A stretch of DNA of 25,360 bases. Origin: a virus. Location of the stretch: IMG/VR virus record IMGVR_UViG_3300020156_000287, positions 1-25,360 of that record. The stretch is one strand, 5' to 3'. The translations under genes and the position numbers were made by a program. Shown in pieces: positions 9,768 through 16,613 of the stretch (the first letter of the stretch is position 1; each line of letters begins with the position of its first letter). A model generated the notes under the pieces. The model saw nothing but the letters and a program-made list of their open reading frames with translations. It was not told the origin of the DNA and made no database searches.

Positions 9768-10460
9768 ATGGCTAAAAATGAGCTCAGAGAAAAAGTCGGC
9801 ACGGCAATCCAGACGGCCCGAAAGCGGCGGGGACTGGTGCAGCGCAACCTCGCCGACCCTCTCGGAACAACCGTCGCAGCGGTGGGAATGTGGGAAAGCG
9901 GAAAAAATCTACCTAGTACCGAAAACCTTATAAGGACCGCCGAGATTTTGCGCGTGGATCCAGCAGCGCTTGGTCGCGGCGAAGTAATCTACCTCGATGA
10001 CGTCGGTCTTGCGGACGCGGAAGTGATAAGCGACCCAGGCCCTCCGCCCTCAGGCCCCATGGACGTTAAGGTGATGGGGGTTACCTATGGCGGAGATGAC
10101 GGCGACTTTACCTTCAATGGCGAGATCGCAGGATATGTGCGGCGACCGGCCGGGATTTCCACAATTCCCAATGTGTTTGCCTTGCATGTCCTCAGTGACA
10201 GCATGGTGCCCAGATATGACCCCGGCGAGGTTATCTATTGCGGCGGTCGGGACCCTGTCCCAGGGGATCACGTGGTTATCGAGACCTTCCCCGATCAAGA
10301 AGGGCATGTCGGCAAGTCCTTCATAAAGAAACTTGCCAGGAGGACTGGCAGAGAAATAATCGTGCAGCAATACAACCCGCCGATGGAACTAACTTTTGAC
10401 CGGTACGCGGTCAAAAACCTATGGCGCGTGATCCCGCTGAAAGAGCTGATTGGTTTCTGA
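9768..10460 (+). CDS. CI-like prophage repressor, XRE helix-turn-helix with S24 peptidase domain
   Basis: This 230-residue repressor has an N-terminal XRE-type helix-turn-helix (REKVGTAIQTARKRRGL, with TVAAVGMWESGKNLPS at about 35-50) and a C-terminal LexA/CI-like S24 domain. The catalytic Ser is in SDSMVPRYDPGE (S145) and the Lys in KSFIKKLAR (K187 or K188). An Ala-Gly pair at 121-122 could be the self-cleavage bond, though it is closer to the Ser than in lambda CI, so SOS-cleavability is uncertain. I chose ATG at 9768 (MAKNELREK) over an upstream in-frame start because only this gives a clean HTH and leaves cro intact. It maintains lysogeny by repressing the cro and early-right promoters. 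Confidence 0.92.
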   Translation: MAKNELREKVGTAIQTARKRRGLVQRNLADPLGTTVAAVGMWESGKNLPSTENLIRTAEILRVDPAALGRGEVIYLDDVGLADAEVISDPGPPPSGPMDVKVMGVTYGGDDGDFTFNGEIAGYVRRPAGISTIPNVFALHVLSDSMVPRYDPGEVIYCGGRDPVPGDHVVIETFPDQEGHVGKSFIKKLARRTGREIIVQQYNPPMELTFDRYAVKNLWRVIPLKELIGF

Positions 10461-10710
10461 GGACTGCCGTCTCCGCTCTCTGACGATCAATATCCTTGGC
10501 GAAGAAAGCTTGAACGGAAACATTCTTTCCCGGCAAACCATCTCCTGTGCAGGATGAGCACGTCAACTTTTGCGCTACGCGGGCGAGTGGTGTGTGCAGG
10601 CTGATCCTGCCGCGTACTAGTTGCGTGGGTATCAACCATCGATTTCTTCCGCAGTCGCCACACTCAATGCCTAGTCTGTTTGCATCGCCAAGCAAGACCT
10701 CTTCACTCAT
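10411..10710 (-). CDS. small putative zinc-ribbon protein
   Basis: This 99-residue reading frame carries two Cys pairs, CGDC near residue 17 and CSSC near residue 52, spaced as in a zinc ribbon, with GLPGKNVSV following. It resembles small rhizobial zinc-ribbon proteins of unknown role. It is convergent with the CI-like repressor and overlaps its last 50 bp. It is divergent from the early-right operon, so its promoter would lie in 10711-10865. A weak GAAGG precedes the ATG. The Cys pairing supports a real gene, but the overlap and weak ribosome site keep this tentative. Confidence 0.5.
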   Translation of the reverse strand: MSEEVLLGDANRLGIECGDCGRNRWLIPTQLVRGRISLHTPLARVAQKLTCSSCTGDGLPGKNVSVQAFFAKDIDRQRAETAVLRNQSALSAGSRAIGF

Positions 10711-10748
10711 GCCTTCACTCGCTTTGTTCTCTTTAAGTTCTCATAATT

Positions 10749-10799
10749 GATTCTTTTTTCCCAGGAGTCGAGTCCCAACGTTCAAGCGGGGCTTATAAT
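10749..10799 (+). promoter_or_regulatory. early-right promoter with GANTC cluster
   Basis: A perfect -10 TATAAT lies at 10794-10799. No canonical -35 is present: 17 bp upstream the sequence is the end of two abutting GANTC sites, GAGTC (10765-10769) and GAGTC (10770-10774), with a third, GATTC, at 10749-10753. GANTC is the CcrM methylation site used by GcrA-dependent promoters in alphaproteobacteria. An inverted TATAAGC (10791-10797) overlaps the -10, as expected for repression by CI or Cro. Promoter assignment is by motif only. Confidence 0.55.
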
Positions 10800-10834
10800 T
10801 TTCGCTTGTTACGATATGTAATTTCTGCTTATAT
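10791..10834. promoter_or_regulatory. candidate repressor operators at the early-right promoter
   Basis: GCTTATAA (10791-10798) and GCTTATAT (10827-10834) lie 36 bp apart and are the inverse of the TATAAGC elements at the cro/CI intergenic region. Between them TTAC-GATAT-GTAA (10809-10821) forms a small inverted repeat. The shared heptamer at both lytic promoters suggests one repressor controls both. Not experimentally supported here. Confidence 0.45.
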
Positions 10835-10865
10835 CAATTGCATCCCGATCCAAGGAGATGCAACG

Positions 10866-11108
10866 ATGATCCGTTTCGAGCCTATCCCCCAACCAAAACT
10901 CTGCGTGCAGCCCAGCATCATTCGTTCGCTTGAAGAGCGCATGGCAGATGACATGCGAGAACTCGCCTTTTCCGGTCGCCCGGTCAACGAAACGACATTG
11001 ATGGAGTGCGGATGGACGAAGCCGACCATCAAGCGTCTCTCGCTGGCTGCCACGGAGATCGCACGCCGCAAGTCGACGAGGCAGATTTCCGTGCGGGAGC
11101 TTGCCTGA
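10866..11108 (+). CDS. hypothetical early protein, possible helix-turn-helix
   Basis: This 80-residue protein is the first gene of the early-right operon. The ATG at 10866 follows a strong AAGGAGATG ribosome site (10852-10860), which decides this start over an upstream in-frame one. The segment RPVNETTLMECGWTKPTIKR, followed by LSLAATEIARRKS, has helix-turn-helix spacing and a basic recognition-like helix, so DNA binding is possible. No family is recognised. The stop TGA overlaps the next ATG (ATGA). Confidence 0.7.
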   Translation: MIRFEPIPQPKLCVQPSIIRSLEERMADDMRELAFSGRPVNETTLMECGWTKPTIKRLSLAATEIARRKSTRQISVRELA

Positions 11109-11275
11109 TGGACAAATCGGCACTCTTCACCGATCGGGACACAGAGCGTCACGCTGATCCGGCGCTGATGGAACTGCTTGTCGAACGTGTCGCCATTTGG
11201 AACCGTCCTCTCGCGTACCTTCTCTCAGCCGCGGTATTTTTCGCCATCGGCTTCTTCGGCGCGGCGCAGGTGTAG
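11108..11275 (+). CDS. small single-span membrane protein
   Basis: This 55-residue protein has a charged N-terminal half (MDKSALFTDRDTERHADP) and one C-terminal hydrophobic segment of about 20 residues (AYLLSAAVFFAIGFFGAA). It is coupled to the gene before it by an ATGA overlap, and the next ATG starts three bases after its stop. The layout suggests a tail-anchored inner-membrane protein. Small early membrane proteins of phages often act in exclusion or host takeover, but nothing here identifies a function. Confidence 0.65.
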   Translation: MDKSALFTDRDTERHADPALMELLVERVAIWNRPLAYLLSAAVFFAIGFFGAAQV

Positions 11276-11277
11276 TG

Positions 11278-11946
11278 ATGACGCTTGCGATTTCCACCAC
11301 AATTCCACGCCTCGCAAACAAGACCGTCTGGTCCTTCAATGACGACGGCACGGTTATGGATCTTGCCGCTCCCGATCCGAGAATGGTTCGCTTCGATGAG
11401 ATGGCGCGCCGTCTCGCTGGTATCCGACGGTTCAATGGCCGTGGAATTCCAGTCGCGCAGCATTCCGTCATGGGAGCACAGGCGATCATCAACGAGGGCG
11501 GCACATCGATGGATGCCGCTTTCTTTCTTCTGCACGACGGTCACGAATACGTGCTTGGCGACATCGTCAGACCGGCCGAGGATTTGCTTGCGGGAATTCT
11601 CGGCACGATCGCCGTCCGGGAAGCTGTGAAGCTAGCAAAGTCCCAATGGGACGAGGCGATCTACACCGCCGCACGCCTCATTCCCCCGTCGCTTTGGACC
11701 ATGAAGCACCGCAAACTTATCAAGAGCATGGATGACCGCATGTGTCGCGCGGAAGCCATGGCATTTTTCGGTGCTGCGGCCGCCCGCCAATTCCCCGACA
11801 TGCCTATTCCAAAGACGACCGGAGCATTTCGCTGCTGGGGCGAGGCAAAGGCGGAGGAAACATTCCTTGAGATGGCCAGATCTCTGATCGGCCGTGACAA
11901 CATTGAGGCGCAGCACGCAATCGCCGCCTCCGCAAGGAGGCGCTGA
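11278..11946 (+). CDS. HD-domain phosphohydrolase (YfbR/DatZ-like)
   Basis: This 222-residue protein has the HD metal-binding residues in order: H62 in PVAQHSV, H86-D87 in FFLLHDGHEYVLGDIVRP, and a later Asp in KSMDDRMCRAEA (152/153). The HDxxEYxxGDixRP form is shared by YfbR-type 5'-deoxynucleotidases and phage dATP triphosphohydrolases such as DatZ. It probably hydrolyses dNMPs or dNTPs and so shapes the nucleotide pool during replication. It lies directly upstream of ssb (one-base overlap) and in one operon with a MazZ-like hydrolase, which supports a nucleotide role. Substrate cannot be read from sequence. Confidence 0.8.
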   Translation: MTLAISTTIPRLANKTVWSFNDDGTVMDLAAPDPRMVRFDEMARRLAGIRRFNGRGIPVAQHSVMGAQAIINEGGTSMDAAFFLLHDGHEYVLGDIVRPAEDLLAGILGTIAVREAVKLAKSQWDEAIYTAARLIPPSLWTMKHRKLIKSMDDRMCRAEAMAFFGAAAARQFPDMPIPKTTGAFRCWGEAKAEETFLEMARSLIGRDNIEAQHAIAASARRR

Positions 11947-12451: not shown

Positions 12452-12820
12452 ATGACCGCCGTCATCAAGGATGTCACGATCGATTTCCAGAAGCCTCAAC
12501 AGCGGGTCCTTCGGGACTGGCTTGCGTCGCTTCCGGAAGGAACACCTCCCCTGCCGCCACTGACCATCAGGGTATCTCACAACGTCGAGATCGATGATCT
12601 CGGTGAAGACGAGGTCGAGGAATGGTACGAAAAGCGCAATCCCTCTGCCTCCGGCAACTGGATCGAGCGCTGCTATCGTCACATCGCCATGGGCGAGAAC
12701 GACGAAGCTCTCGACCTCATCTACAGGGAGGCGCCTGACGGGCTTGCCCCCCCGTCCACGGAAAAGCGCACGGCCGATCGGCTCAAGGCTCCGGAGATCC
12801 CCGCCCATGCTGAAAACTGA
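12452..12820 (+). CDS. hypothetical early protein
   Basis: This 122-residue protein is not recognised. The start at 12452 follows ssb by 8 bp and the end overlaps the sliding-clamp start by 14 bp. It is acidic in the centre (EIDDLGEDEVEEWYEKRNP), contains an aromatic/basic helix (GNWIERCYRHIAMGENDEALDLIY) and a Pro-rich tail. Its position between SSB and the clamp suggests an accessory replication role. No motif for clamp binding was identified with confidence. Confidence 0.7.
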   Translation: MTAVIKDVTIDFQKPQQRVLRDWLASLPEGTPPLPPLTIRVSHNVEIDDLGEDEVEEWYEKRNPSASGNWIERCYRHIAMGENDEALDLIYREAPDGLAPPSTEKRTADRLKAPEIPAHAEN

Positions 12821-13922
12821 AAAACCCGCCCTGCTGGCGGCGCTCTCGGCCGTCATCGAGGCCGTCAAGGCGAACAGCCAGAACCCAGTTATGTCGGATG
12901 TCCTGATCGAGAAGGCCGGCGACGGCATCTCGGTGACCGGCGGCAATCTGGATATCGAGATCCGCAGCACCTGCGATGCGGCACTGACGGATGATTTCCG
13001 GGATTTCACCTGCCCAGCGCATCGACTGGTCGACATCGTCAAGAACGCTCCGGAGGCCGCGATCACAATCGAGCTGATCGACGAAGGCCGCCAGGTGCAA
13101 GTTCGCTCCGGCCGCTCGAAGCTGAAGCTGCCAGCGATGGCCGCGGCGGATTACCCGAAACTCAACGTCGCGCGGCTGCAGCATTCCGTCAGCCTGTCGT
13201 CGGAAATCCTCGCCAAAGCCCTTTCCGGCGTCGCCTTTGCCGCCGAGACGAGCGACGCAAGGCCGCATCTTTGCGGCGTTCATGTACGGCCGATGAAGGA
13301 AGGCATGGACGTCGTCGCCACCAACGGCCGCATCGTCGCAAAACGGATGATCGAGGCAATCGCCTTCGACGAGGACATTTCGGCGCTTCCATCGATCACC
13401 ATTCCGAACAAGGCAGTCCGGCCGATCGAGAACCTGCTTTCGAACGGAGACGACGTCGAGATGCAGTTCTCGAAGCAGATGATCGTCTTCACGGTGGGCC
13501 GCACCACGCTGACGACAAAGCTCGTCGAGGGCATCTATCCCGATTACCGGAAGATACTGCCGGCCGCCGATTCGGTGACGTCGAAGTTCAGCGGCGCGGC
13601 CCTTGGCGGCGCTGTCACGCGCGTGCTGATCGCAACGCCGGATGCCGGTTATGGCATGAGCTTCAAATTCTCGTCCGCATCCCTTTCGCTTTCCGCGCGC
13701 GACATGAAGGCGGGCGAAGGTGAGGACGAGGTTCCGATCGAAGCGGATGGCGAGATCACGACCGGCTTTAATGGCCGTTTTGTCCTGTCCGCGCTTGCTC
13801 ATCTCGACGAGGACAAGCTGGAACTGACGGTAGGCCAGGACGCCGCGCCGGCCAGGCTGCGCGCCCATGGCGACGAGCACAATTACATCATCCTAATGCC
13901 GACCAGAGTGAGGGCCGCGTGA
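12807..13922 (+). CDS. dnaN: DNA polymerase III beta sliding clamp, phage-encoded
   Basis: This 371-residue protein has the length of bacterial beta clamps. Recognisable segments run through three clamp domains: LLAALSAVIEAVKANSQNPV and GGNLDIEIRS in domain 1; LSGVAFAAETSDARPHLCGV and VATNGRIVAKR in domain 2; and a C-terminal YIILMPTRV, matching the clamp's conserved C-terminal hydrophobic pocket region. ATG at 12807 (MLKTEKPALLA) has GGAG 10 bases upstream; longer readings overlap the preceding gene in a foreign composition. The clamp would tether a polymerase to phage DNA. No polymerase gene is in the window, so it probably serves host Pol III or one encoded elsewhere on the phage. Confidence 0.92.
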   Translation: MLKTEKPALLAALSAVIEAVKANSQNPVMSDVLIEKAGDGISVTGGNLDIEIRSTCDAALTDDFRDFTCPAHRLVDIVKNAPEAAITIELIDEGRQVQVRSGRSKLKLPAMAAADYPKLNVARLQHSVSLSSEILAKALSGVAFAAETSDARPHLCGVHVRPMKEGMDVVATNGRIVAKRMIEAIAFDEDISALPSITIPNKAVRPIENLLSNGDDVEMQFSKQMIVFTVGRTTLTTKLVEGIYPDYRKILPAADSVTSKFSGAALGGAVTRVLIATPDAGYGMSFKFSSASLSLSARDMKAGEGEDEVPIEADGEITTGFNGRFVLSALAHLDEDKLELTVGQDAAPARLRAHGDEHNYIILMPTRVRAA

Positions 13923-14593
13923 TGACTGATAACCTTGTCGAGTATTTCGAGCGACAGATTGCATGGTCACGGGAGACATTCGGCCCCGCGCTGCGCACCA
14001 AGGGCGTCATCGATCACATCCGCAAGGAGCTGAATGAGATCGAGCAGAACCCGCACGATCTTTCGGAGTGGGTGGACGTCGTCATCCTTGCCATGGACGG
14101 CTTCTGGCGTCACGGCGGCAAGGCATCTGACATTCTTCTCGCGCTTGTCGCCAAGCAGGAGAAGAACATGGCGCGCGCCTGGCCGGACTGGCGAATCATG
14201 TCGGAAGACAGTGCGATTGAGCACGACCGCACAAGGGACATCTCCCCACCACCCGAGTCTCATTTGGTGGGTGAAGTATGGCGCGATGGCCTAGGCAGGG
14301 TAACACCGAAGCCTGCCCACGCCGACGCGGTCTTGGAGGACATGGGTTTCACCCCCGCACCCGCATCTCATGTGCGGGCAACCGACAGCTTCGGCAATGA
14401 TCTGGTTGAGCGGGAGCTTGTGTCGATCGTGCTGCGCATGTCCCGGCATCTGCAAGCCGTGGAAACTCCGGCCGCAAAGAAGCTGAATGCGGGCGCGCTA
14501 GACTATCTCCGACGTAAAGGGCTTATGCCCTCTCCGTTGAGAGGGGAGGATACCGTCGTGCAATCCGCAGTGGAGGGCTCGACGGATGGGTGA
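13922..14593 (+). CDS. MazZ-like dATP/dGTP diphosphohydrolase (DUF550), with inserted repeat
   Basis: This 223-residue protein has a DUF550/MazZ domain at 1-95: FERQIAWSRETFGP, RTKGVIDHIRKELNEIE, DLSEWVDVVILAMDG and KNMARAWPDWR. The MazG-type metal motif is E36xxE39...E49xxD52. DUF550 enzymes remove pyrophosphate from dATP/dGTP and, in phage S-2L, from dGTP on the route to 2-aminoadenine. The domain usually ends near 'WPDWR'. Here a linker follows containing one copy of a 36-residue repeat (115-150, LVGEVWRDGLGR... to ...TPAPASH), then a ~70-residue unknown tail. I chose the ATG at 13922 over the GTG at 13919; either couples to the clamp stop. Confidence 0.85.
   Translation: MTDNLVEYFERQIAWSRETFGPALRTKGVIDHIRKELNEIEQNPHDLSEWVDVVILAMDGFWRHGGKASDILLALVAKQEKNMARAWPDWRIMSEDSAIEHDRTRDISPPPESHLVGEVWRDGLGRVTPKPAHADAVLEDMGFTPAPASHVRATDSFGNDLVERELVSIVLRMSRHLQAVETPAAKKLNAGALDYLRRKGLMPSPLRGEDTVVQSAVEGSTDG
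14245..14271 (+). repeat. in-frame palindrome H1 at the left edge of the first 108-bp repeat
   Basis: CCCACCA (14245-14251) pairs perfectly with TGGTGGG (14265-14271) around a 13-base loop ending TCTCATT. It encodes part of a PPPESHLVGE segment. The 108-bp repeat begins inside this loop, at the T after TCTCA. Confidence 0.6.
14263..14370 (+). repeat. 108-bp in-frame repeat, copy A
   Basis: This copy encodes a 36-residue unit (LVGEVWRDGLGR through TPAPASH) inside the MazZ-like gene. Copy A is identical over 108 bp to copy C about 1.1 kb downstream in another gene and differs from copy B at two silent positions. Copy A is bordered on both sides by TCTCAT (14258-14263 and 14366-14371). Internally it has GGCAGG/CCTGCC and the palindrome GCCTAGGC, so it can fold. 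Confidence 0.9.
14354..14378 (+). repeat. in-frame palindrome H2 at the right edge of copy A
   Basis: CCCGCAC (14354-14360) pairs perfectly with GTGCGGG (14372-14378) around an 11-base loop ending TCTCAT. It encodes TPAPASHVRA. The stem differs from H1 while the loop is similar, so the pairing is maintained though the bases changed. Confidence 0.6.
14528..14545 (+). repeat. compact in-frame hairpin near the end of the MazZ-like gene
   Basis: CCCTCTC (14528-14534) and GAGAGGG (14539-14545) form a 7-bp stem with a CGTT loop, read as MPSPLRGED in the protein. Peptides such as PSPLRGE are a familiar by-product of rhizobial intergenic palindromes read in frame, so it may be a fragment of one. That comparison is from memory. 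Confidence 0.4.
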
Positions 14594-14999
14594 CCGCTAT
14601 GAACACGGCTGGCGCACCATGCCGGACGGCAGCCGCATTGCCCTCACGGAGCAAGAGGCCAAGGATATTCACACCGCGCTTGTCGAGATGAAGACGGCGC
14701 GCGCGCAGAAACTACCGACTGCGGTCGACGCTCTCAACGCGATATCCGAGGCCATTGCCAGGCTCCGGGAACTCGGCTGGAACCAGATCAGCCCACGAGA
14801 TGGCGAGGAAAAGGCCATGCTGCAGTTCTCGTCAACGGGCATGTGGCACGCATTTCGGCATGGCGAGTACATCCATTGCGAGGACTACGTCTACGGTCCA
14901 GGCGACAAAAACCTCATGTTCAAGCCAATCGACCAACTCACGGATGATGAGCGCGAGCGCATCGCGTACTGCATCGAAACGAGGCAAACTTACCTATGA
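14586..14999 (+). CDS. hypothetical early protein
   Basis: This 137-residue protein overlaps the MazZ-like gene by 8 bp and the next gene by 4 bp (ATGA). The N-terminal half is helical and charged (LTEQEAKDIHTALVEMKTARAQK). The C-terminal half is strand-like with aromatic residues (TGMWHAFRHGEYIHCEDYVYGPGDKNLMFKPI). No family, catalytic motif or membrane segment is recognised. Composition and codon use look like the surrounding operon. Confidence 0.75.
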   Translation: MGDRYEHGWRTMPDGSRIALTEQEAKDIHTALVEMKTARAQKLPTAVDALNAISEAIARLRELGWNQISPRDGEEKAMLQFSSTGMWHAFRHGEYIHCEDYVYGPGDKNLMFKPIDQLTDDERERIAYCIETRQTYL

Positions 15000-16027
15000 G
15001 CTTCCAGAACAAAAAGAACATCTACACCTGCGAAGTCTGCCACGACCACGTCGTGACGGTCGATATCGACGAAGGCGTGACGCCCTTCATGATCGACTGC
15101 AAATGCACGCCGGGCTGCAAGGGCATGATGAAGTCCAGCATGTACCGCGTGTTCGATCAGTCCATGAAAGCCGGCTGGGAGTGGTATCGTCCGACCGACG
15201 TTTCCGGCCTGTCGCGATGGTCTCTGGATCATGTGTCGAAAGGCGGCCTTATCCTGCGTCAGGTGCCACCACCCCAACCGAATTTGGTGGGTGAAGTATG
15301 GCGCGATGGTCTAGGCAGGGTAACACCGAAGCCCGCCCACGCCGACGCGGTCTTGGAGGACATGGGTTTCACCCCCGCACCCGCATCTCATTTGGTGGGT
15401 GAAGTATGGCGCGATGGCCTAGGCAGGGTAACACCGAAGCCTGCCCACGCCGACGCGGTCTTGGAGGACATGGGTTTCACCCCCGCACCCGCATCTCATA
15501 GCAAGGCGAGCGAGATCATTGCGGCTATCCGCCACCAGCTGGAAATCAACGTCCAAATTGCTGAACAGAACAGCCCCGAGGGTCCGATCGTAGACGGCAA
15601 GCGCGTGAAGGGGCTTACCCACTCACAGGATATTCTTGCTCAGCACATCCGCGACCATCTGAGCGAACTAGAATTGGTCATCGCCACCCCCGCACCGCAG
15701 GAACATGTGCGGGGATGCGACGATGGTGTGATCGCTTCCAAGGAGCGCCTTGAAGTCTGCCGAGCATGGGCGGAATTAGCGGCAGAGAATGATCGACTTC
15801 GAGAAAAAATAGAGGGTTGGAAACCGCAGCGCTGGATGGGTCCGGAGCAACTAAGTAGGCAGCGCGACGACACCCACGAAGAGGCGATGACGACTATCCT
15901 CAGCGCCGCAGGTGTTTGCACGCTCTCTTATGAGGAGGTGGCCGTCGGCTACGCCAGGGCGCGCGGCTTCATCCGAGACGATGCCGAAATGATGTGTGAC
16001 CCGGTAAAGGAGGCCAGCAATGGTTGA
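14996..16027 (+). CDS. modular hypothetical protein with Cys-rich head and two tandem 36-residue repeats
   Basis: This 343-residue protein looks built from pieces. Residues 1-68 hold a Cys-rich module (CEVC at 12-15, CKCTPGC at 35-41) with conserved aromatic residues (AGWEWYRPTD), possibly zinc-binding. Residues 97-132 and 133-168 are two tandem copies of the repeat found in the MazZ-like protein. Residues 169-240 are a helical segment, followed by a TPAPQEHVRG element encoded by palindrome H4. The C-terminal ~100 residues are helical (RLEVCRAWAELAAENDRLREKI). The mosaic resembles the variable Ead/Ea22-like genes of temperate phages, but I cannot assign the family. A 4-bp ATGA overlap precedes it and an 8-bp overlap follows. 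Confidence 0.75.
   Translation: MSFQNKKNIYTCEVCHDHVVTVDIDEGVTPFMIDCKCTPGCKGMMKSSMYRVFDQSMKAGWEWYRPTDVSGLSRWSLDHVSKGGLILRQVPPPQPNLVGEVWRDGLGRVTPKPAHADAVLEDMGFTPAPASHLVGEVWRDGLGRVTPKPAHADAVLEDMGFTPAPASHSKASEIIAAIRHQLEINVQIAEQNSPEGPIVDGKRVKGLTHSQDILAQHIRDHLSELELVIATPAPQEHVRGCDDGVIASKERLEVCRAWAELAAENDRLREKIEGWKPQRWMGPEQLSRQRDDTHEEAMTTILSAAGVCTLSYEEVAVGYARARGFIRDDAEMMCDPVKEASNG
15266..15290 (+). repeat. in-frame palindrome H3 at the left edge of copy B
   Basis: CCACCA (15266-15271) pairs with TGGTGG (15285-15290) around a 13-base loop. It is the positional equivalent of H1, but the loop lacks TCTCAT. It encodes part of PPPQPNLVGE. Confidence 0.5.
15283..15390 (+). repeat. 108-bp in-frame repeat, copy B
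   Basis: First of two tandem copies. It differs from copies A and C at two positions only, GGC to GGT (Gly) and CCT to CCC (Pro), both silent. The period to the next copy is exactly 108 bp (36 codons). Confidence 0.9.
15391..15498 (+). repeat. 108-bp in-frame repeat, copy C
   Basis: Second tandem copy, identical to copy A in the upstream MazZ-like gene. It joins copy B without a gap, with TCTCAT at the junction, and ends in TCTCAT before the SKASEIIAA segment. Confidence 0.9.
15688..15714 (+). repeat. in-frame palindrome H4
   Basis: CCCCGCAC (15688-15695) pairs perfectly with GTGCGGGG (15707-15714) around an 11-base loop ending CAT. It encodes TPAPQEHVRG, matching the TPAPASHVRA encoded by H2, but without an adjoining 108-bp unit. 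Confidence 0.55.
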
Positions 16028-16613
16028 GGATTTTAACGTGTCTTTGGCCGGTCGCATCGCATCGGCTCGAAAGGTTTCAGGGAAAACACAGCAGCAGATC
16101 GCGGACGCGCTATCGATCCACGTCAACCAGTACCAGCGTCTCGAAGCGGGGAAGCACCGCGTCAGCGCCTATGACCTCACGCGCATTGCAGCCGCCATCG
16201 GAATTTCTGCCGGTGATTTGCTTACCGGCCCGCCAGCGCCGCAGAACCATGGGCTCGGCATGCGAGAGCCGTTGGATCAGGACATTCCAGACGCGGACAA
16301 AGCCTTATTGCAGCGTCTTGCCGAGACGCACCCCGACGATATCGCCGTTGAGGCATTCTCTATCGCAATGAAGGCAAAGCTTGCCAAAAAGCGTAACGAA
16401 GGTCGTGGCGGCTGGCAGGACAAGACGCTGTGCAGCGCTGAATACCTGTCGCATCTCCTCCGCGAGCACGTTGAAAAGGGCGATCCGATCGATGTCGCCA
16501 ACCTCGCGATGATGCTCCATCAGCGTGGCGAGCGCATCACCCCATCGCCCTCGACGCATGTGGTGGGGGAGCTAGTCGAGTATCAGGCCTCAAAATCGAA
16601 GCAAACCCCATGA
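16020..16613 (+). CDS. XRE-family helix-turn-helix protein with C-terminal GRGGW domain
   Basis: This 197-residue protein has an XRE helix-turn-helix at residues 7-68 (LAGRIASARKVSGKTQQQIA, then HVNQYQRLEAGKHRVS). After a linker with PPAPQNHG comes a module at about 117-170: KAKLAKKRNEGRGGWQDK, LSHLLREHVEKGDPIDVAN, LAMMLHQRG. The 'KRxxGRGGW...HVxKGDPxDVANxxMML' module is common in variable phage proteins, usually without an HTH. The C-terminus carries TPSPSTHVVGEL, a relative of the 36-residue repeat edges, encoded by palindrome H5. It probably regulates transcription; the partner role of the second module is unknown. ATG overlaps the previous gene by 8 bp. Confidence 0.82.
   Translation: MVEDFNVSLAGRIASARKVSGKTQQQIADALSIHVNQYQRLEAGKHRVSAYDLTRIAAAIGISAGDLLTGPPAPQNHGLGMREPLDQDIPDADKALLQRLAETHPDDIAVEAFSIAMKAKLAKKRNEGRGGWQDKTLCSAEYLSHLLREHVEKGDPIDVANLAMMLHQRGERITPSPSTHVVGELVEYQASKSKQTP
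16540..16568 (+). repeat. in-frame palindrome H5
   Basis: CCCCATCG (16540-16547) can pair over all eight positions with TGGTGGGG (16561-16568), two of them G-T wobbles, around a 13-base loop containing GCATG. It encodes TPSPSTHVVGEL, like the junction of two 36-residue repeats. Confidence 0.45.

Follow-up and report, generated by a model that had tools for sequence, protein, structure and literature searches.

In eukaryotic exon shuffling, introns of symmetric phase make exchanges in frame. For phages, linker or boundary sequences have long been proposed to take part in modular evolution (Susskind and Botstein 1978; Botstein 1980), an idea cited in PMC9836094 and discussed in PMC3029335 and PMC3945230, and whether mosaicism arises via short shared sequences or by illegitimate joining followed by selection has been debated for long (PMC3945230, PMC3029335). 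Here we describe a 108-bp in-frame repeat, and the ~30-bp linkers that bound it, in the complete IMG/VR virus record IMGVR_UViG_3300020156_000287 (25,360 bp, all of it analysed and called the window). Judging from sequence comparison, temperate Rhizobiaceae phages probably exchange protein modules among their early/accessory genes at phase-locked linkers, and the repeated unit, M1, would be one of these modules.

In the boundary-sequence model, as here, a short conserved sequence at module borders permits homologous exchange; the difference is that here members of one linker family, all in the same codon phase, occur within many genes and several times per phage, connecting parts of proteins. 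A conserved short sequence was found at the borders of different modules, with breakpoints concentrated there. It is established in other systems (PMC2327257, PMC3945230) that diverged phage sequences undergo homologous exchange of this kind. Work on phage protein mosaicism and domain shuffling (Smug et al. 2023, PMC10684548) likewise found proteins built from exchangeable fragments, but described the outcome and does not mention linkers in its text, whereas the joints described here carry a recurrent DNA linker. The lambdoid Ea22 proteins with portable DUF551 C-terminal domains (PMC10834534) are also early multi-domain phage proteins with swapped parts, and DUF551-like and MazZ/DUF550 modules occur in linker phages too; that paper, in which the word ‘linker’ appears 0 times, does not describe a recurrent nucleotide linker. 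Rickettsia palindromic elements (RPEs), in-frame insertions of ~150 bp that add peptide (Ogata et al.; reviewed in PMC10969869), share the in-frame palindromic DNA in coding genes of unrelated function, but they differ from the present case, in which a joint of ~30 bp between coding modules is palindromic and the shuffled unit is protein under constraint. With exon shuffling the linkers share phase-matched joints, but there are no introns and the joint is translated. Among open-licence papers, none was found that reports such a linker, recurring in frame and phase-locked within phage genes.

A linker conserved in DNA and in codon phase

The comparisons establish nucleotide-level conservation of the linker, a single reading phase, breakpoints at linkers, changing module partners and linker-bounded duplications. 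At every junction of the arrangement found in the window stands a linker of ~30 bp with the consensus ACACCCCATCACCCCAACCGAATGTGGTGGGG, encoding the proline-rich peptide (T/S)PxPxxNVxG or HVxG. Viral contigs were scanned for its core, CCNNCNCCSCAACCGAATKTG, and for a synonymous control with the same peptide, CCNNCNCCSCAGCCGAACKTG, the two being compared by frame composition only and not by totals. Among the matches listed, the core occurred at at least 22 sites in 20 stretches (all viral contigs scanned), with 22 of 22 in one reading frame of open reading frames (ORFs) of at least 113 aa and with different flanking sequence on both sides. The control gave 20 listed stretches, of which 9 belonged to a single repeated locus; its peptide frame stayed open for at least 100 aa in 4 of the 20. 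The core is therefore phase-locked while its synonymous recoding is scattered over frames, and it is thus the DNA that is conserved and not the peptide alone.

A matrix trained on these core sites and run at a threshold of 10 bits over 27 loci returned 122 linkers, against 2 in Markov-shuffled sequence. The linker frame was open for at least 60 aa in 106 of 108 linkers (46 and 43 for frames 1 and 2) and was the longest of the six in 85 of the 108. As the matrix and the census overlap in sequences, only the shuffle control, frame test and exact-pattern scan count as independent evidence. The linkers sit in the early/accessory region, nearly all on the gene strand, with 5 to 12 per early region in many phages.

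Linkers also lie close to gene ends, and both N-terminal and C-terminal lengths are bimodal: 5–6 residues precede the first linker in 10 of 70 genes (MTKNDT-, MSKTKS-, MTDNKT-), and 4–7 residues follow the last one in 16 of 70. Several terminal linkers are followed at once by a Shine-Dalgarno-like sequence and the start codon of the following gene (CCGAGGGAGGTGGGG..ATGA), and two mini-genes contain nothing but a start peptide, a linker and a stop, at 15173–15283 of one contig (L157; MTKNDT-PAPQTR-EIGK*) and on the reverse strand at 10224–10349 of another (L158; MTNPDT-HAPEPR-EVGSE*); these look like empty cassettes. Many early genes (for example at 14564–14593 in the window and in contigs L143–L160) end in a recurrent tail, ..TEGSxNG*, that extends over the Shine-Dalgarno sequence and start of the following gene and is possibly a second shared border sequence.

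Proline-rich peptides of the PxPxP type are common hinges between domains, and a linker is missing at some junctions, so the linkers might be convergent peptides, left where illegitimate recombination anywhere was followed by selection for flexible hinges at domain borders. We regard this as very unlikely: conservation is at the nucleotide level, with a CAA-CCG-AAT core recurring as linker and the synonymous CAG/AAC recoding not used, the linker is also fused to Shine-Dalgarno sequences at gene ends and placed right after start codons, where no hinge is needed, and the ends of homology blocks are enriched at linkers (below).

As a genomic repeat of Rhizobiales the linker was matched in 0 of 298 and in 1 of 397 genomes, the single match probably being chance, and it is thus phage-borne. 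No convincing case was seen in isolated phages, and an exact 17-mer linker scan gave no match. Among plasmids it was found only in an apparent phage-plasmid, the 41-kb plasmid unnamed5 of Rhizobium rhizoryzae (NZ_CP049252.1; L162), which carries linkers, a terminase, ParA/ParB and an integrase and shares sequence with the IMG/VR record G932. Matches in Rhizobium pTi were set aside, two of the three inspected falling in non-phage genes.

M1 and its linkers in the window

The window contains three copies of M1, named A, B and C, all in frame and given here by codon-boundary coordinates; the original prediction had reported the same three copies in an equivalent register, 1 bp lower.

14264–14371, + strand: copy A of M1 with its 3' linker half (LVGEVWRDGLGRVTPKPAHADAVLEDMGFT-PAPASH), in the MazZ gene, identical to C
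15284–15391, + strand: copy B of M1, differing from A/C at two silent sites, at each of which it has the base found in the outgroup copy (contig L008)
15392–15499, + strand: copy C of M1, tandem to B and identical to A

As had been claimed, A and C are identical and the two differences of B (GGC/GGT, CCT/CCC) are silent, A lies within the MazZ gene yet outside the recognised domain (PF04447, residues 12–103), and B and C form a tandem pair in a gene unrelated to it (14996–16027). The 25,360-bp record holds no fourth copy. A repeat finder gave 131 bp of homology between copies, at 91–96%, longer than the unit because the flanking linkers are common to the copies. The genes concerned are built as follows.

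13922–14593, + strand: gene 1, MazZ domain (dATP/dGTP pyrophosphohydrolase, PF04447), linker, M1, linker, M2
14372–14593, + strand: module M2 (VRATDSFGND..GALDYLRRKG..), ratio of non-synonymous to synonymous substitution rates (dN/dS) 0.03–0.11
14996–16027, + strand: gene 2, N-terminal Cys-rich domain, linker, M1, linker, M1, linker, M3, linker, C-terminal module; no Pfam match
15500–15688, + strand: module M3 (SKASEIIAAIRHQLEIN...)
15814–16027, + strand: C-terminal module of gene 2 (GWKPQRWMGP..), which follows a PSPETN linker in the viral record G936
16020–16613, + strand: gene 3, helix-turn-helix (HTH) domain, linker, module M4 (phrog_8298, HPDDIAVEAF..AMKAKLAKKR), linker, short tail

The linkers in these genes, with their matrix scores, are:

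14240–14272, + strand: linker 1 (ISPPPESHLVG), hairpin CCCACCA/TGGTGGG, 29.4 bits
14348–14380, + strand: linker 2 (FTPAPASHVRA), hairpin CCCGCAC/GTGCGGG with an 11-nt loop, 24.3 bits
15260–15292, + strand: linker 3 (QVPPPQPNLVG), 31.2 bits
15368–15400, + strand: linker 4, the B/C junction, arms do not pair, 26.0 bits
15476–15508, + strand: linker 5, the C/M3 junction, left half only, 10.2 bits
15683–15715, + strand: linker 6 (ATPAPQEHVRG), hairpin CCCCGCAC/GTGCGGGG with an 11-nt loop, 24.3 bits
16227–16259, + strand: linker 7 (GPPAPQNHGLG), weak, the point where the HTH domain of G936 continues into M3, 10.7 bits
16536–16568, + strand: linker 8 (ITPSPSTHVVG), 9-bp hairpin with G.U pairs and an 11-nt loop, 29.7 bits

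Linker 4 reads as a recombinant, its left half being of linker 2 type and its right half of linker 1 type. Twenty-one bp of linker 8 are identical in another gene of G936, and CCCACCACCCGAGTCTCA, which precedes M1 in the window, precedes a different module in L008.

An integrase, CI-like repressor, SSB, sliding clamp and primase are encoded in the window, which is therefore a temperate phage or a piece of one. Its relatives suggest a link to Rhizobium and neighbouring genera; for most contigs compared, hosts are inferred. An AlphaFold2 model of gene 1, from a three-row alignment, was uninformative (mean predicted local distance difference test score, pLDDT, 38.5). A deoxyribonucleoside 5'-monophosphatase of the HD type (phrog_318) lies at 11197–11946 on the + strand, ~2 kb upstream of the MazZ domain (13922–14239, + strand). 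The pairing of monophosphatase and MazZ recalls phages with Z-genomes (2-aminoadenine); PurZ was not noticed in the window.

Modules change partners between phages

Copies of M1 in unrelated genes elsewhere, which the original prediction had proposed to seek, do exist: an otherwise unrelated phage (L008) carries M1 in a third protein context. Between the window and this 8-kb stretch, DNA is shared only at M1 (91%) and M3 (97%), in opposite order. The M1 copies differ at 10 of 108 nt, 7 of them silent, while the first 183 nt of M3 are identical in both and 1 nt different in a further contig (L010), where M3 is preceded by another domain; M1 and M3 were thus probably exchanged on separate occasions. 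What precedes M2 is M1 in the window, a DUF551-like domain in Rhizobium sp. BK316 (L007) and yet another domain in a further Rhizobium genome (L098). The MazZ domain stands at the N-terminus in the window and at the C-terminus in phage phiLM21, whose MazZ protein (80% identical) stops soon after the domain and lacks both M1 and M2. In G936, M3 takes the place of M4 and is fused to the HTH domain of the window, and the last module of gene 2 has another partner. The two ends of the G936 record (L167/L168) overlap by 127 identical bases, inside M3, hence it is probably a complete circular genome though classed as linear. In an unrelated phage (L006; viral contig 3300017971_000403) the peptide YGEVWRDGMG, resembling the start of M1, ends a short ORF.

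This pattern extends over the phages compared. Cutting 70 genes at their linkers gave 188 segments and 28 recurrent clusters, 26 of which had more than one left or right neighbour; clustering was by single linkage, and a few clusters merge modules that have no linker between them. The ends of homology blocks fell in a linker or within 5 bp of one in 50 of 289 cases, where 10.6 were expected (maximum 20 in 200 random draws), ~5 times chance. One contig (L144) contains a 602-bp duplication (10398–10999 and 12518–13119; 99.5% identical) that is bounded by linkers at both ends and spans a gene border, and two others (L143/L157) share a 720-bp block (99.0%) that likewise crosses from one gene to the next between two linkers; in one phage it ends at a filled site, in the other at the empty mini-gene MTKNDT-PAPQTR-EIGK*. 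Sibling phages L008 and L009 are 99.8% identical on both sides of a site where different modules stand between linkers.

These comparisons bear on the original prediction of an intragenic mobile palindromic element, RPE-like, or of a freshly duplicated module under gene conversion. A palindromic DNA element of ~108 bp, like an RPE or a miniature inverted-repeat transposable element, that inserts in frame into genes would account for the in-frame copies in unrelated genes (genes 1 and 2 of the window and L008), for the clean absence of the unit from the phiLM21 orthologue and for palindromic sequence at its borders. The self-complementary segments reported for the unit (GGCAGG/CCTGCC, GCCTAGGC) are present in A and C, but the two silent changes of B break them, and such internal palindromes are absent from the outgroup as well. 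Folding of the unit was no better than that of shuffles (z = −0.98, 0.16, 0.33), and the meaningful inverted repeats lie at the ends of M1, not within it. Neither a target-site duplication nor a transposase was seen; in phiLM21, where M1 and M2 are missing together, a target duplication is not distinguishable from linker homology. Moreover, M1 is a constrained protein module: dN/dS is 0.15, and with the low values for M2 this indicates purifying selection that maintains the protein sequences. As what recurs across genes is the ~30-bp linker, joining many unrelated modules of 30–287 aa, the 108-bp unit is not the element, and we consider insertion of such an element highly improbable.

A purely local origin, by tandem duplication in gene 2 and one copying or gene conversion into gene 1, fits the identity of A and C, the tandem arrangement of B and C and the span of the three copies, under 1.3 kb. 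It is nevertheless quite unlikely as an account of the whole pattern, since M1 also occurs in a third gene context, in the unrelated phage L008, and the breakpoints lie at linkers that recur elsewhere. The L008 copy has the B state at both silent sites; the two bases common to A and C are hence derived, and C cannot simply have arisen as a fresh copy of B. Duplication with gene conversion may fit the last step, and that step alone. In all, the unit turned out to be neither an ancient conserved domain of all homologues nor confined to this pair of genes, the two outcomes that had been named as speaking against its mobility.

The linker hairpin

The linker consensus is an imperfect palindrome that folds into a hairpin with a 9-bp stem and an 11-nt loop, and several linkers of the window are perfect hairpins. 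The 11-nt loop is seen at the joints CCCGCAC-CCGCATCTCAT-GTGCGGG, CCCCGCAC-CGCAGGAACAT-GTGCGGGG and CCCCATCGC-CCTCGACGCAT-GTGGTGGGG. Arms pair best in register (4.74, against 2.5–3.3 when shifted), which would suit a reactive site for a structure-dependent recombinase or for single-strand annealing, comparable to an integron attC. However, there is no covariation between the arms: right arms permuted among linkers pair as well as the real ones (5.13 vs 5.05, p = 0.18; 10 vs 9.0 for runs of at least 7). The compensatory change that keeps the hairpin in attC-type sites is therefore not found here. Equal pairing of permuted arms is expected from free exchange at the loop and gives no evidence of a structural requirement. 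Linker 4, with its halves from two hairpin types, is a visible case. Many active linkers have broken arms, and no candidate recombinase was seen beyond the integrase, an ordinary phage integrase in the window, where no search was aimed at IntI. We thus hold a reactive hairpin to be unlikely, and the hairpin may be incidental. A census of loop lengths at 85 loci of the M4 family showed no general excess of 11-nt loops, so the feature belongs to the linker and not to these phages at large.

How linkers would recombine

If modules are swapped at phase-locked linkers, any two linkers, whether in the same phage or in different ones, would recombine to give an in-frame protein, because all linkers stand in one codon phase. 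The blocks moved would extend from linker to linker, each being either one module (108 bp for M1) or a stretch that begins within one gene and reaches into its neighbour. The likeliest route would be homologous recombination with the linker as a short homology of ~15–35 bp, carried out by host RecA or by a phage annealing protein. Under this scheme, the tandem B–C pair may have come from unequal exchange between linkers, A and C being made identical by later copying.

Several points weigh against this explanation. The evidence is all comparative, and recombination itself was not observed. RecT and ERF are missing from the window and from almost every linker-rich record, where the Rad52 and Sak4 families were not searched for. 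The linkers have diverged, and in present copies the shared homology is perhaps only ~15–35 bp. About five in six homology-block ends lie away from linkers, so linker exchange is one route among several, and a recognisable linker is missing at some junctions, namely that of M2 in L098 and that in PPF1_63. The latter, a gene of phage vB_RleM_PPF1 (L161), fuses two modules of linker phages with no recognisable linker, and linkerless fusion therefore also occurs.

A further-reaching version of module exchange at linkers is possible but rather doubtful. Early genes may be cassettes, composed of start peptide, linker, modules, linker and Shine-Dalgarno/stop, some of them empty, in which a dedicated phase-locked linker allows proteins to be continually reassembled in frame, possibly with a recombinase of their own acting on the palindrome.

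Implications for phage mosaicism

A phage group with recognisable single-phase linkers at intragenic joints, many per genome, makes the debate on the origin of mosaicism directly testable, and linker phages offer a natural model for in-frame domain shuffling. The linkers also provide a practical parsing rule for annotating early phage proteins of unknown function, and shuffling at linkers would explain the many combinations in which these proteins occur, including those with MazZ/DUF550, DUF551 and M4-type modules.

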